Below, piece after piece: positions 14,728 through 29,821 of a stretch of DNA of 53,040 bases. The notes beneath the pieces are model-generated. The model had not been told where the DNA came from. It ran no database searches and was given only the letters and a program-made list of their open reading frames with translations. The first letter of the stretch is position 1. Each line of letters begins with the position of its first letter. The position numbers were made by a program, and so were the translations under genes. The stretch comes from a virus. Where the stretch lies: IMG/VR virus record IMGVR_UViG_3300046355_000151, positions 1 through 53,040 of that record, one strand, 5' to 3'.

Positions 14728-15225
14728 TCAAGGGTTATAAGCGGTAAATACTGTGCATGTGATTTCTTTTGGTTGTACAAAAGAAAAACCACTATACTCA
14801 TTACCATTGTACGATGAATACAGACAGTTAATTTTAACATGACCAACAACTTGTTTATTTTCAAGAATAGCAAACACAGTATATACAGGATATTCACTTA
14901 GGTCATTATCATCAATACTAGATGAGATACTATTATTATATAGGTCATTATCAAATGTAGCAGAATTGTACTTAATACTTAGATTGACTTCATTGAGATA
15001 AGTATTAATATCATATTCAATATTATTATCATCTGTGTTATAACCAGTTAAGTATCTTGTAATTTCAGGTCGATTACCAATGAGATACTTATCAAATGCA
15101 GTCTTAAATCGTTTATTCCAAGGTAATGCATTCTGAAGTTGCTTAATTTTTTCTGCAGCTTCTTTTTGAATCTGAGCAATTTGCTGCTCTACTGTAGGTT
15201 CAGCTACAGCTTTAGTTCGTGCCAT
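14728..15225 (-). CDS. Unknown phage protein with coiled-coil N-terminus
   Basis: 165 residues: about 1-35 forms a short coiled coil (VEQQIAQIQKEAAEKIKQLQ), the middle is asparagine/aspartate-rich, and the last 45 residues are the domain shared with the gene at 14372. Its start overlaps the end of the nucleotidyltransferase-like gene by 14 nt. Function unknown. Confidence 0.65.
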   Translation of the reverse strand: MARTKAVAEPTVEQQIAQIQKEAAEKIKQLQNALPWNKRFKTAFDKYLIGNRPEITRYLTGYNTDDNNIEYDINTYLNEVNLSIKYNSATFDNDLYNNSISSSIDDNDLSEYPVYTVFAILENKQVVGHVKINCLYSSYNGNEYSGFSFVQPKEITCTVFTAYNP

Positions 15226-16030
15226 GTTCTAGTTCCTTTCTAATGTTGTCAAACTTTATTGTATCACACAAATTAAAGATTTCAGGATAATTATCTATCG
15301 CAAAATCTCTAAACCAACCACTACACAATGTAGTACATACTTTATCAAGTGCTTTGAGATAAGCATGTCTTGGTGCATAATTCCAGTTACTTGGTACAAG
15401 AAAGCGTTCAATTGCAATGACTTGTGTTTCTTCAGCTACGCATTTGATTTTATCATCATTTGATAGCTTGTCCCACAAATCTTTGTCACACCATGCACTG
15501 CTTGCATCACGTTGAAGCTGAGTATACAATGGTTTATCGTGATATGCAACAAGTTCATGCAAATAATCATGATTGTATTTCTTCTCAACATAATCATCAA
15601 AGAAGTCTTCTACAGATTTCTTCAAACTCGGATGACCTTGTGGATAAGCTGCCATAGTCAACTTTGTTCTATTCTCAAGGATAAGTTCATCAACTTTTGT
15701 AAACTCTGCACGATATCTTGCAAGATGCTTATGATAGTGCGTAATGTGCTTTTGAAAGCTTAGATCACGCCACAGGTGACTGCGTTTGATGATTGCTAGT
15801 CCAATCGGATTAACGATGTATACACGTTGACCTGCAATCTCAAAGTAATCATCAGATGCATACTTTTGTAGATCAGAGCTACCTAGTGCATTAAAAGCAT
15901 GATGTTCAATGCGTTTAGTATCATCTTCAATTTTATGCAAGCTAATAATGTCCCAATCAGCATTGGGTTTGCACTGGAAGTTTGAAGTCCAATGTTCCAA
16001 TGCACGAGAACCAATCAGTAGGTTTTTCAT
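15212..16030 (-). CDS. Nucleotidyltransferase-like protein (DUF7275-like)
   Basis: 272 residues. It opens with LLIGSRALEHW...NADWDII (about 4-29), the GS...D.D arrangement of the polymerase-beta nucleotidyltransferase core, and is followed by a helical, histidine-rich body. Related phage proteins are often annotated as DUF7275; the match is from memory. It follows a tRNA cluster and has a structured leader at 16042-16135 ending next to its AAGGAG site, so its translation may be controlled by RNA. A role in tRNA end metabolism is a guess from context. Confidence 0.6.
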   Translation of the reverse strand: MKNLLIGSRALEHWTSNFQCKPNADWDIISLHKIEDDTKRIEHHAFNALGSSDLQKYASDDYFEIAGQRVYIVNPIGLAIIKRSHLWRDLSFQKHITHYHKHLARYRAEFTKVDELILENRTKLTMAAYPQGHPSLKKSVEDFFDDYVEKKYNHDYLHELVAYHDKPLYTQLQRDASSAWCDKDLWDKLSNDDKIKCVAEETQVIAIERFLVPSNWNYAPRHAYLKALDKVCTTLCSGWFRDFAIDNYPEIFNLCDTIKFDNIRKELEHGTN

Positions 16031-16041
16031 ATTACTCCTTA

Positions 16042-16135
16042 GTTATAGTAAGAGATATTAACACAACTCCTGCATGTGGGAAGCACTTGTTTGTTAATCT
16101 GACACACCACCATCACTTTTATCTCTTACTATAAC
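16042..16135 (-). promoter_or_regulatory. Structured RNA leader of the nucleotidyltransferase-like gene
   Basis: GTTATAGTAAGAGATA (16135-16120, minus) pairs perfectly over 16 bp with 16057-16042. Inside, TTAACA/TGTTAA, CAA/TTG and CT-CC/GGAG form a second long hairpin directly stacked on the first. The ribosome site AAGGAG (16041-16036) is adjacent to the closing stem. A 22-nt single-stranded segment (16119-16098) lies between the stems. Confidence 0.7.
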
Positions 16136-16358
16136 CTCTAGTCCCTAAACCAGTATTATAGTGTCTTTCGCTCCCGTAAAAGATTTTGTCTCCTATTATT
16201 CGTTACGCTTTTGGACGACAATCCTCATGCTGGAAATCCTGCAGTACAGCGCAACTTGTACTTGCATTTTTAATGATAGGGTTTTCACCTACCTCGACCG
16301 AAGTATGCTGCTAACTCTAGGGATTTGAGCAACAAGCATGGCGGGACTAATTTTAGGG
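16136..16358 (-). other. Non-coding stretch with dense hairpins after the tRNA cluster
   Basis: No gene. On the minus strand I see local hairpins (GTACA/TGTAC with loop AGTTGCGC, ATGCT/AGCAT, TAGG/CCTA with loop TGAAAA). A TATAAT at 16160-16155 with a weak TTTTAC 15 nt upstream may be a promoter for the structured leader. Confidence 0.45.
16155..16181 (-). promoter_or_regulatory. Possible promoter for the structured leader
   Basis: Minus strand TTTTAC (16181-16176), 15-nt spacer, TATAAT (16160-16155). The start would be about 12 nt before the 16-bp stem. The -35 is weak. Confidence 0.4.
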
Positions 16359-16470
16359 TGAAGCTGGAAGGATTTGAACCTCCGACCCGCCTAGTGCATA
16401 TTTATCTAGAAAACGTAAACACTATCGACAGTAACCTGCCCAATGACTCTACCAACTGAGTTACAGCCTC
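16359..16470 (-). tRNA. tRNA-like element of 112 nt without a canonical anticodon arm
   Basis: The acceptor GAGGCTG/CAGCTTC, D-arm (ACTC...GAGT with GTTGGTA loop), and T-arm GGAGG-TTCAAAT-CCTTC are good. Between the D- and T-arms are 62 nt instead of about 22. They contain GGCAG-GTTA-CTGTC and TAGTG...CACTA hairpins but no 5-bp stem with a 7-nt loop. CCA is not encoded (ACCC follows). It starts 5 nt after tRNA-Arg. It may be a tRNA interrupted by an insertion, a class II variant I cannot fold, or a degenerate tRNA. Confidence 0.55.
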
Positions 16471-16475
16471 TATTC

Positions 16476-16550
16476 TGGTACGGCGTAGTGGAATCGAACC
16501 ACTATTGAATGCTTAGAAGGCACTTGCACTATCCATTGTACTAACGCCGT
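16476..16550 (-). tRNA. tRNA-Arg (TCT)
   Basis: 75 nt with encoded CCA. Acceptor ACGGCGT/ACGCCGT, T-arm AGTGG-TTCGATT-CCACT, anticodon stem AGTGC/GCATT with one G-T pair and loop CTTCTAA, giving anticodon TCT for AGA codons. Confidence 0.92.
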
Positions 16551-16562
16551 TTGTTATCTCAA

Positions 16563-16739
16563 TTATACATCAGTTTTTAACTTTGTGTCAACACTGCGTA
16601 AAATATTTTCTTTTATGTTTAACCTAGCTAGTTCGTTAAGATCAGACTGAGGCATCGACATGCTAGATCGTAGTGTACCATTTGCATCAAACTGTTGCAA
16701 TGTCTGATACTCTTTATTGTACTCATACATGTAACTCAT
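16563..16739 (-). CDS. Small unknown protein
   Basis: 58 residues from the ATG at 16739, chosen because GGAGG lies 10 nt upstream. Soluble, with no recognised motif. It overlaps the next gene by 17 nt and is the last of three small genes between the polymerase and the tRNA cluster. Confidence 0.6.
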   Translation of the reverse strand: MSYMYEYNKEYQTLQQFDANGTLRSSMSMPQSDLNELARLNIKENILRSVDTKLKTDV

Positions 16740-21167: not shown

Positions 21168-21335
21168 TTACTCCTTATTTCCATGTCTTGATGTGTAGTC
21201 GCCTAAAATATTTAACTGCCGTTGTCTATATTCAATCGCCAATTTCTTTGCGTCTAATCCTAATTTTAAACAAGAAATCACATCAGAATCGTAATAAACA
21301 AAATCACTCCAAGGTATCTCCAAATCATTCTCCAT
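21168..21335 (-). CDS. Small unknown protein between RNA ligase and primase
   Basis: 55 residues from the ATG at 21335, which overlaps the end of the RNA ligase by 11 nt and follows AGGCGG. Helical, with LGLDAKKLAIEYRQRQLNILG. Its stop codon is next to the primase-helicase ribosome site. Function unknown. Confidence 0.55.
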   Translation of the reverse strand: MENDLEIPWSDFVYYDSDVISCLKLGLDAKKLAIEYRQRQLNILGDYTSRHGNKE

Positions 21336-22347
21336 TTTTGTATAACCGCCTGTTTGAAATAGCTTTCCACGATAAGTCATGTACTGTATTACTTCGAAAA
21401 ACGACACCCTCTCTTTCACTACCGTTTAGCAAAGATTTACCTTCTGCAAAATCCAAGATAGACTGAATACTTTGTTCTTTAATCTCAGTAGCTTCTACAA
21501 TGATAGGTACATGCTTTAGTCCTAAACGCTCACATGCTGCTTTAAGCTGTACAGGTAAAATGTATTGACCTGTATGCGTATTGTACATGTCGTAGACGTA
21601 GAAGTCAAGCTGTGTTTTGTACTGGTTACCTTGAATACCTTCACCGATCATTTCACCCTGAATTGCCATACCTAGCATAAAATTCCTACGCATGATATCT
21701 TCGATTTGAAACTTACGTGCTACTTTCCAGAATGAGTTTGCTTCGTCTTCTTCCAGATCAAGATTGCGTGAGCATACGTGAAATACGCCTTCATCATCTA
21801 GGTAGAATGTGCAAGATGAACCATCAAGTTTTTCTGTAATAGACCAGCTATCAAGTTGATACTGCTCAAAAGAACGAGTAAGGTTTTGAATACGCTCTTG
21901 ATCAGTCTTTGGAACCAGAGTTGGAAAATTACCTCGTGCCATACCAGCAAGTTGAGCATTCATTGGGCATTCCCACTTTAGGATGCCAAGATGTTCTGTC
22001 AGGTCCAATCCTTCAGCAACAAGATGACCAGCACCTTTAATGGTATCTTCTGGAATAGGCAGCAATAAACCCTGCGAGAGTTGACCACGCAGTTTTACTG
22101 TACGTAGACGCTCGCCCTTTACACCTTCAAATTCACGAGGTTCTTTACCTTTAGATAGAAACGGTGCTAGTTCATGAGGTACGAAAGAATCCACCTCTAG
22201 GTACACCACCAAATCATTTACTTGGTACTTACCTACAGAATCAACAAGCCACCAACCATCTACACGATAAGCACAAATCTTATCTGCATCTGGAATAGCT
22301 TTTACTTCTGCAATTTTACGAATTGTTGCTAACTTTCGTTCAGTCAT
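21325..22347 (-). CDS. RNA ligase, DRB0094 (Rnl5-like) family
   Basis: 340 residues. An N-terminal OB-like domain (about 1-110, KLATIRKIAEVKAIPDADKI...VYLEVDSFVPH) precedes the nucleotidyltransferase domain, as in Deinococcus DraRnl. Motif I is WSITEKLDGSS (about 168-178, Lys adenylated), then GEMIGEGIQGN, FYVYDMYN, REGVVFRS (motif IV) and LSWKAISNR (motif V). It would seal nicked RNA, probably in tRNA or mRNA repair. It lies next to the DNA ligase; a second, different RNA ligase is at 28943. Confidence 0.88.
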   Translation of the reverse strand: MTERKLATIRKIAEVKAIPDADKICAYRVDGWWLVDSVGKYQVNDLVVYLEVDSFVPHELAPFLSKGKEPREFEGVKGERLRTVKLRGQLSQGLLLPIPEDTIKGAGHLVAEGLDLTEHLGILKWECPMNAQLAGMARGNFPTLVPKTDQERIQNLTRSFEQYQLDSWSITEKLDGSSCTFYLDDEGVFHVCSRNLDLEEDEANSFWKVARKFQIEDIMRRNFMLGMAIQGEMIGEGIQGNQYKTQLDFYVYDMYNTHTGQYILPVQLKAACERLGLKHVPIIVEATEIKEQSIQSILDFAEGKSLLNGSEREGVVFRSNTVHDLSWKAISNRRLYKNGE

Positions 22348-28223: not shown

Positions 28224-28428
28224 ATGGTCTGGTACTGCATTTTATATGATCAGCATGATCTTAACAACATTAAACATTTTCCCTCTGAATCTTTTGTTTG
28301 GTTTCATTGGTGGATTTCTATGGTGTTTAGCTGGTTGGTTTAGCTATAAAGATAAAGCACTTGTAATTGTAGAGGCAGCTTCTGCAGCTATTTACCTATT
28401 CGGTTTAATTAATTGGAGTTTAAAATGA
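28216..28428 (+). CDS. Small membrane protein
   Basis: 70 residues, three hydrophobic stretches (about 8-24, 27-42, 47-66: TAFYMISMILTTLNIFPL, LLFGFIGGFLWCLAGWF, ALVIVEAASAAIYLFGLI). The pattern recurs in small phage and bacterial integral membrane proteins. It overlaps both neighbours. Function unknown. Confidence 0.65.
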   Translation: MLRWSGTAFYMISMILTTLNIFPLNLLFGFIGGFLWCLAGWFSYKDKALVIVEAASAAIYLFGLINWSLK

Positions 28429-28931
28429 ACAACATTAAAGCTGGCGCTGATATCAATGCTGGTGACGGTGGTTACAGCGAAGGTACATTAGAAGGTTATG
28501 AACAATTTTCTAAAGCTCGAAACAAATCCAGAGGTAAACCTACTTTATATTTAATCCGTGGAGTTCCCGGAAGTGGAAAATCAACTTTTGCACAAGTACT
28601 TCTTGATGAATTTGTAGTACAACGTATTTATGAAGCTGATCAATACTTTGTACAAAACGGTGAATACCAATTTGATCCTACGCACCTTGAACAAGCGCAT
28701 AATGATTGCAAGCGTAAAACTTGGCTGGCACTGTATGAAGGTATGTCAGTTGCAGTATCAAATACATCTTGCACTGAGTGGGAAGTCGAAACTTATGCTA
28801 TAATTGCACGAGAGACTGAAGCTAACTTTGTGAGTATCATTGTTGAGAACAGGCACGAAGGTAAAAATATTCACGGTTGCCCTGATGCTAAAGTCGAACA
28901 AATGAAACGAAAGTTTAGTGTAAAATTATAA
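28425..28931 (+). CDS. Polynucleotide kinase-like P-loop protein (N4BP2/AAA_33 type)
   Basis: 168 residues from the ATG at 28425 (GGAG upstream). A P-loop RGVPGSGKST (about 43-52) is followed by YEADQYFVQNGEYQFDPTHLEQAH (about 67-90), SVAVSNTSCTEWEVETY and KNIHGCPDAKVEQM, the signature of NEDD4BP2-type 5'-OH polynucleotide kinases. It lacks the HAD 3'-phosphatase half of T4 Pnkp. The Rnl1-like ligase follows after 11 nt, so the pair probably heals and seals broken RNA. Confidence 0.85.
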   Translation: MNNIKAGADINAGDGGYSEGTLEGYEQFSKARNKSRGKPTLYLIRGVPGSGKSTFAQVLLDEFVVQRIYEADQYFVQNGEYQFDPTHLEQAHNDCKRKTWLALYEGMSVAVSNTSCTEWEVETYAIIARETEANFVSIIVENRHEGKNIHGCPDAKVEQMKRKFSVKL

Positions 28932-28942
28932 AGGAATTAAAG

Positions 28943-29821
28943 ATGCTATTAACATATGATGAACAGATGAATTTAGTTAATCGTGGATTAGCTACATTTA
29001 GAAACGATGGTAAATACACTACGTTTAAATACGCTCGTAAGGCAATGTATGAGTATCTTTGGAATAAAGTACCTGCGTTGTGTGAATCTCGTGGTCACGT
29101 ATACTGTAATAGCACAAAAGAACTAGTGCAAGCTGCACCACGTAAAAGCTTTAATTATCTTGAGCGCAATTACTGGAGTGATGTGCCATTGGATACTCCA
29201 GTTGAAATGCACAAGAAGGTCAATGGGTTTATGGCTTGTGCTACACTACACAATGACGAACTTCTGGTTAGTACTACAGGTACAACTACAAGTGAATATG
29301 CCCAGTGGGCCAAAGAATTAATTGTTCGTGATTACAATCTATATGACTTGGTGATTGAATCAGAGGTTACTACGTTATTTGAAGTTGTAGTAACTCAAGA
29401 CCCACACATTGTGCAAGAGCGTAAAGGTTTGCATCTGCTTGGTGTACGTGAGAAAGATACAGGAGATTTTCATCCTATGGGTGTTAATATTCGTTGTACA
29501 CTAGAACAAGCATTGGAAATTGCAAAATATGATCGTGGTGAAGGTTTTATGATGTATCCTATGTTACCAAATGGTTTGTATGATTACAACAACTGCTGTA
29601 AACTAAAGACTCCATACTACGTTGGTAAAAAGAAATTGATGCGTATGACAGCAAAGAATGTTGAGTTGATGTATAATAATCCAACAGCAATTGCTGTAAG
29701 TCTACCGGAAATGTGGTATGATGCACCTGAGTATATTGCACGTAAGATCACCAAAGAAGCTTGGTTAGAAGCTACTGATCAACAACGTAGGATAATTCTT
29801 GAATATTTAAATGGAGTTTAA
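28943..29821 (+). CDS. T4 Rnl1-like RNA ligase
   Basis: 292 residues. Motif I is MHKKVNGFMA (about 92-101, KxNG with the adenylated Lys), then LVIESEVTTLFEVV (III), RGEGFMMYP (IV, about 199-207) and KLKTPYYVGKKK (V, about 218-229). It is shorter than T4 Rnl1, with a small C-terminal helical domain. It joins RNA ends healed by the upstream kinase, for example tRNA anticodon loops cut by host defence nucleases. Confidence 0.88.
   Translation: MLLTYDEQMNLVNRGLATFRNDGKYTTFKYARKAMYEYLWNKVPALCESRGHVYCNSTKELVQAAPRKSFNYLERNYWSDVPLDTPVEMHKKVNGFMACATLHNDELLVSTTGTTTSEYAQWAKELIVRDYNLYDLVIESEVTTLFEVVVTQDPHIVQERKGLHLLGVREKDTGDFHPMGVNIRCTLEQALEIAKYDRGEGFMMYPMLPNGLYDYNNCCKLKTPYYVGKKKLMRMTAKNVELMYNNPTAIAVSLPEMWYDAPEYIARKITKEAWLEATDQQRRIILEYLNGV

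Follow-up and report, generated by a model that had tools for sequence, protein, structure and literature searches.

Here we describe a tRNA-like RNA encoded on the minus strand of the IMG/VR virus record IMGVR_UViG_3300046355_000151, the full 53,040-nt stretch of which was analysed and is referred to below as the window. The RNA, designated class A, lies third in a locus that runs on the minus strand from a promoter through tRNA-Arg(UCU), the class A RNA and a non-coding RNA (ncRNA) to a gene for a DUF7275 protein. These features, together with three protein genes elsewhere in the window, are as follows.

16562..16591 (-), perfect sigma-70-type promoter preceding tRNA-Arg, TTGACA-18-TATAAT (12/12 consensus match)
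16476..16550 (-), tRNA-Arg(UCU), 5 nt upstream of the class A RNA (ARAGORN; cmscan 61.1 bits)
16359..16470 (-), class A tRNA-like RNA, 112 nt (cmscan RF00005, 40.5 bits, anticodon arm skipped)
16131..16348 (-), conserved structured ncRNA downstream of the cassette slot, AGTCCCG...CTGGTTTAGGGACTAG, also given as AGTCCCG...GTTTAGGGAC (about 20 distinct versions)
15212..16030 (-), DUF7275 protein gene at the end of the locus (PF23940, E 1.3e-61)
21325-22347, RNA ligase (PF09414)
28413-28931, kinase (AAA_33)
28943-29821, RNA ligase (PF09511)

Sequence similar to the window promoter also stands ahead of tRNA-Arg in L066-L068. The ncRNA stretch at 16131-16348 has no Rfam match, and an alifold of 12 sequences gave 26 pairs, 12 of them with double (compensatory) changes; it is possibly a finding in its own right.

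A tRNA body without an anticodon arm

An earlier note, made from the DNA letters of the window, had placed here a 112-nt tRNA that lacks a normal anticodon arm and is otherwise well formed in its acceptor, D and T arms. Its coordinates were exact, and each detail of its description that was open to a test was borne out. The RF00005 match at 16359-16470 (-) reaches 40.5 bits (gathering threshold 29; E 3.3e-5 over the window), with the 7-bp acceptor, the D arm and the T arm all complete, and the gap of 5 nt to tRNA-Arg(TCT) at 16476-16550 is as the note had it. The Infernal alignment produced by cmscan bypasses the whole anticodon arm, setting 56 nt against 18 model positions. Between position 26 and the T stem there are 62 nt, as had been counted, where the anticodon arm and variable loop of a normal tRNA take up 23. 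Neither in the cmscan alignment nor in the excision search described below did the window RNA show the 5-bp anticodon stem, 7-nt loop and U33 of RF00005. ARAGORN, at default thresholds and with the intron option on or off, called tRNA-Arg alone at the window locus, so that this check, which the earlier note had proposed, brought up no standard tRNA fold in the interval; in intron mode at lowered thresholds it yielded many spurious tRNAs, and that output was disregarded. The elements of the RNA are listed here from 5' to 3', the acceptor strands being the outermost.

16464..16470 (-), acceptor stem 5' strand, GAGGCTG (7 pairs with 16360-16366; double changes at 3 pairs in homologues)
16446..16461 (-), D arm, ACTC-AGTTGGTA-GAGT (4 pairs present in 9/9 homologues, no variation)
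16441..16445 (-), linker CATTG at the expected start of the anticodon stem (3/5 columns invariant)
16427..16440 (-), insert hairpin 1, GGCAG-GTTA-CTGTC, with a loop length that varies among homologues (A-U to C-G compensation in L178/L199)
16392..16424 (-), insert hairpin 2, TAGTGT...GCACTA, with a variable distal part (G-C to C-G compensation in L088/L178/L199)
16384..16391 (-), 3' linker GGCGGGTC, C48 retained (7/8 columns invariant)
16367..16383 (-), T arm, GGAGG-TTCAAAT-CCTTC (2 pairs with double changes)
16359..16366 (-), acceptor 3' strand CAGCTTC and discriminator A (next comes CCC in the window, CCA in L067)

Both hairpins proposed in the note, GGCAG-GTTA-CTGTC and (A)TAGTG...CACTA(G), are contained in the minimum free energy fold of the window RNA. 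The folding energy is not significant (z -1.35; 19/200 shuffles equally good), so the window sequence by itself is insufficient to prove the structure; the two hairpins are backed by covariation among homologues. Hairpin 1 with a weak T run also scores as terminator-like, but such a score is expected 0.8 times per region and is therefore not evidence of a terminator.

The class A family and its covarying structure

A 21-nt piece of the insert, used as a probe against viral contigs, matched five of them, each time within the same kind of tRNA-like RNA. In a separate survey, viral contigs were screened for tRNA D and T arms spaced by 50-80 nt; L088 and L178 were among the matches listed, and these two share no insert probe with the window. 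The class A core pattern was found at 27 loci, which reduce to about ten distinct versions, or eleven including the window, one of them cut at a contig end (L049 and L067 are one contig). The insert also has a 20-nt match in L009, where the surrounding sequence is ordinary and contains nothing tRNA-like; this match was judged to be chance.

Among seven distinct homologues, each with 27 predicted pairs, all 189 of the 189 pair cells hold standard pairs. Fourteen cells are changed on both sides, against a shuffle mean of 3.9, and the covariation score is 0.325 against a shuffle mean of 0.126; none of 500 shuffles reached either value. The double changes are spread over the acceptor and T stems and both insert hairpins. 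With nine homologues the result was similar (no cell unpaired, both sides changed in 21, 0/500 shuffles), the count of doubly changed pairs, taken alone, being reached by 42/500 shuffles. Since the class A homologues form only two sequence clusters, most of these double changes may stem from few events. The top of hairpin 2, imperfect in the window, is a perfect TAGTGTAG/CTACACTA in L068, and in L047 the hairpin is shortened and re-paired as TAGTAC/GTACTA. The check on related phages named in the earlier note thus brought out compensatory change, not sequence decay.

The two parts of the RNA are conserved in different ways. When the window group is compared with the L088 group, identity is 0.56 in the acceptor and 0.58 in the T stem, 0.79-1.00 in the insert linkers and 0.87 in the hairpin-1 stem, and 0.28-0.36 in the distal loops. 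Because the acceptor and T stem drift and yet stay paired, while the linkers and hairpin-1 stem are nearly fixed, the tRNA body is conserved as a shape and the insert's junction core as a sequence. In L067 the insert is nearly identical to that of the window, though the DUF7275 proteins of the two are only 64% identical. The elbow positions U8, A14, G15, G18, G19, C48, U54, U55, C56 and A58 are retained in class A. The D stem gives no independent support, since it is invariant and the D arm was part of the survey probe that recovered L088 and L178, a bias that does not touch the insert, which lay outside that probe. Among class A members only L067 encodes CCA, the window reading CCC.

The window RNA carries the features that define class A, namely a tRNA body with two covarying insert hairpins and a conserved GUCGAU and UAGGCGNGUCG core, and it scores 134.8 bits with the R2 covariance model, the training set of which included it. 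It is a tRNA shape in which the decoding arm has been exchanged for a conserved two-hairpin domain, so that of the identities offered in the note it is the tRNA-like RNA that held, as a conserved covarying family. Because the decoding arm is replaced by a separate conserved domain, the RNA probably does a job other than codon translation.

A search of INPHARED returned no match to the window tRNA-like RNA, to the class B RNAs described below or to the L088-type class A RNAs. Also, class A was not found in 200 genomes of one betaproteobacterial order, a weak result from a search without a positive control. In the open-access literature, which leaves most subscription journals out of scope, we found no report of phage tRNAs without an anticodon arm.

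A cassette slot and other unusual tRNA-like RNAs

In 28 distinct versions of the locus, the slot between tRNA-Arg and the ncRNA holds class A in 6, class B in 6 and neither in 16. Its content in relatives is nothing, class A, class B or other RNAs, and in many of them tRNA-Arg directly abuts the ncRNA. L101 has flanks near-identical to those of the window, with class B in the slot. The slot is thus a cassette site for tRNA-like RNAs, as its content is exchanged among relatives. Class A is found in a second setting in the L088-type phages, where it lies immediately upstream of a terminase operon; ARAGORN found no tRNA on the seven L088-type contigs examined. The large terminases of the window and L088 types could not be aligned (E 0.03), and on this ground class A is an independent module, present in phages of two unrelated groups.

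Class B (CAGGAACC..TCATGGTGAAGGACCAAAT..GGGTAAACYAAGCCG) is an anticodon-less tRNA-like RNA as well formed as class A and different from it. Double changes occur in 12 of its 24 pairs, and its covariation score was reached by none of 500 shuffles. Its members (L054:3530-3628, L055, L058, L061, L063, L101, L116, L127, L138, L142, L147 and L162) are located in large phage tRNA arrays and, in relatives, at the window's locus, and CCA is often encoded. Related and analogous RNAs are present in many phages.

Several other elements were recorded in the course of the analysis. In L066 and L067 a second odd tRNA-like RNA follows class A, and L038 (3484-3666) holds two others; these slot elements end in CCA and have non-standard middles (GGACAAATTG...TTTGTCCACCA; GTACGTT...AACGTACACCA). 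Non-coding inserts between tRNA-Arg and the ncRNA are common to L050 and L051 (GAACCCATTCGGGATGGGAACGG...) and, with another sequence, to L042 and L142. L089:10282-10386 and L154:2908-3014(-) are alike, with an insert GGGCGATGAGC...AGTGTTTTCATGC replacing the anticodon arm. Upstream of the class A RNA in L088, L190, L197, L199 and L200 there are repeated hairpin-like units, ACGCATGGGGATTG...CAGTCCCCAGCCGTGTTGG, that have GTGTTGGTG in common with the class A acceptor. The variable arm of the tRNA-Arg(UCU) at L003:3799-3891 is extra long (TGCC-AACGAA-GGCA), an uncommon feature in a tRNA-Arg. In Limnohabitans phage DC31 (L002:9863-9938, minus strand) a tRNA-Arg without a D arm has, shortly upstream of it, an HNH-like ORF, with GCGAGTGTA in duplicate; the arrangement resembles the insertion of an endonuclease gene.

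A proposed natural tRNA scaffold and its alternatives

We propose, at a probability of about 0.5, that class A is a natural, non-decoding tRNA scaffold that presents a trans-acting insert domain. It would be co-transcribed with tRNA-Arg(UCU) from the strong promoter, RNase P and the 3'-end enzymes would trim it by way of its tRNA body, and that body would shield it from RNases; where CCA is not encoded, it could be added by a CCA-adding enzyme of the host. The surface that binds in trans would be the insert's junction core (CAU-GGGC, GUCGAU, UAGGCGRGUC). Since the distal loops are free to change, its partner is more likely to be a protein or ligand than an antisense target. The 12/12 promoter ahead of tRNA-Arg would be in keeping with such a scaffold, and the fact that CCA is not always encoded would count against it. 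By analogy, some support may come from the engineered tRNA scaffold of Ponchon and Dardel, which has an identical plan, acceptor, T and D arms with the insertion at the anticodon arm, and gives a processed RNA in E. coli (PMC3753655); that construct is man-made, whereas class A occurs in nature, with a conserved insert.

The main rival to the scaffold is a decoy, in which the tRNA body itself would be active and would soak up a host defence enzyme or toxin acting on the elbow or the acceptor/CCA end, the lack of an anticodon loop conferring immunity to anticodon nucleases. The elbow and acceptor of class A are indeed intact and the loop is missing, and the turnover of class A, class B and other tRNA-likes at one locus resembles an arms race. 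The two RNA ligases and the kinase, which the earlier note had recognised and the PF09414, PF09511 and AAA_33 matches bear out, would fit as well, and it is known that tRNAs of phages can defeat defences that cut tRNA (PMC11555353). However, among the paired parts sequence conservation is lowest in the acceptor and T stem, and the insert core is conserved as sequence, a pattern that fits less well because a plain decoy would have no need of such a core. A decoy aimed at enzymes that read the elbow or acceptor is thus possible, if on balance unlikely; the form suggested at the outset, a decoy for anticodon nucleases, is not favoured because class A offers no anticodon loop for cutting.

The position of class A between tRNA-Arg and the conserved ncRNA could also mean that it is processing punctuation, marking RNase P and RNase Z cuts that release its two neighbours. 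This is improbable because many relatives without the element keep both neighbours, with tRNA-Arg directly followed by the ncRNA; furthermore, the L088-type phages carry class A without that tRNA on the contigs examined, and the conserved insert core would be left unexplained.

Somewhat more remote is a non-decoding tRNA-like RNA that is aminoacylated by an enzyme of the AlaRS, SerRS or LeuRS type, which ignores the anticodon, and is used outside ribosomal elongation. The acceptor is complete, and the window copy combines G3:U70, the alanine identity pair, with A73. However, every class A relative has A-U or U-A at this pair, so that alanine identity is confined to the window, and neither the discriminator nor CCA is conserved.

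The note had also raised the idea of an interrupted tRNA, in which the insert would be an intron and the joined exons would decode. The RNA ligases of the window phage and the tRNA introns reported in Lak phages (PMC6784885) would be compatible with this. We therefore removed every single stretch in turn and required a 5-bp anticodon stem, U33 and R37. As a positive control, 67 of the 79 cellular matches listed were solved, mostly archaeal introns at 37/38, and in the viral survey a full solution was obtained for 29 of the 80 matches listed, against 1.5% in shuffles, these being phage tRNAs with intron-like inserts near position 28/29. In contrast, no single excision restored these features in any class A member: none exceeded 3/5 anticodon-stem pairs and the best solutions lacked U33. 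Class B had no solution either. As the test works elsewhere and fails here, an ordinary intron is unsupported for classes A and B, and we consider this reading very unlikely. Group I and group II introns gave no Rfam catalytic-core match at E<=5, and hairpin 1 was rejected as an anticodon arm, having loop lengths of 4 and 9, not 7. Last, a decaying tRNA or pseudogene, for which one could cite the 40.5 bits, low for a tRNA, and the CCA end that reads CCC, is contradicted by the covariation of class A, with 100% of pair cells kept, 14 of them compensatory, and by the nearly unchanged L067 insert at 64% DUF7275 identity, and has a negligible chance of being right.

The survey also brought up tRNA genes whose anticodon stem carries, in its 5' strand, an insert of roughly 40-55 nt, for the most part close to position 28/29. 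They occur in viral contigs (class C, Lak type: L072, L102, L113, L131, L135, L136, L149, L163, L176, L179, L183 and others) and in bacteria (L227, L232, L237 and L272 from Lachnospiraceae; L214 and L241 from Nostoc). The inserts often read GTAAAA-hairpin-(A/G)CAGCAA, and once they are removed the anticodon arm is perfect; they have the look of small tRNA introns of a non-archaeal class.

The closest precedents of class A are the T4 RNAs C and D and the Lak-phage tRNA introns. T4 RNAD and RNAC (species 2 and 1; 119 and 139 nt) are stable, Northern-checked late RNAs that do not decode and whose function is unknown (PMC9697503; PMC3014915). In the T4 record they lie, like class A, directly after a phage tRNA-Arg, and RNAC has a tRNA-like T arm; unlike class A, they have no intact acceptor-D-T cloverleaf and no RF00005 match. 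The class A model did not match them at E<=5, so there is no homology at the sensitivity tested. The Lak megaphage tRNAs with "enigmatic introns" (Devoto et al. 2019, PMC6784885) are likewise phage genes above normal tRNA length with a conserved inserted sequence. Their inserts, however, are read as introns in otherwise normal tRNAs, whereas no excision restores the anticodon arm of class A, and they resemble the class C group. Two further comparisons were discarded. Bacterial Y RNA (YrlA, RF02553), which also contains a tRNA-like module, scored 20.6 bits against a cut-off of 69, with a match covering parts of two genes. tmRNA (RF00023), which shares tRNA-like ends and a replaced middle, gave no match, and class A differs from it in its real D stem and its much shorter length.

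Genes of this kind are passed over by the standard tRNA finders, ARAGORN missing class A and Rfam filing it as a plain tRNA. Classes A and B provide tractable analogues for the T4 RNAC/RNAD puzzle, and the variable distal loop of hairpin 2 could hold an affinity tag, a handle on the host factor engaged. The usual interpretation of phage tRNA clusters is codon supply or the replacement of tRNAs that have been cut; that a tRNA body lacking the decoding arm is conserved points to some genes of these clusters doing something else. More tentatively, phages might make wide use of the tRNA body as a natural scaffold, exchanging the anticodon arm for varied structured payloads, classes A and B among them, that are swapped as cassettes at fixed loci and act in trans, perhaps against host defences that act on tRNA. 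If so, tRNA annotation would be concealing a new kind of viral ncRNA.
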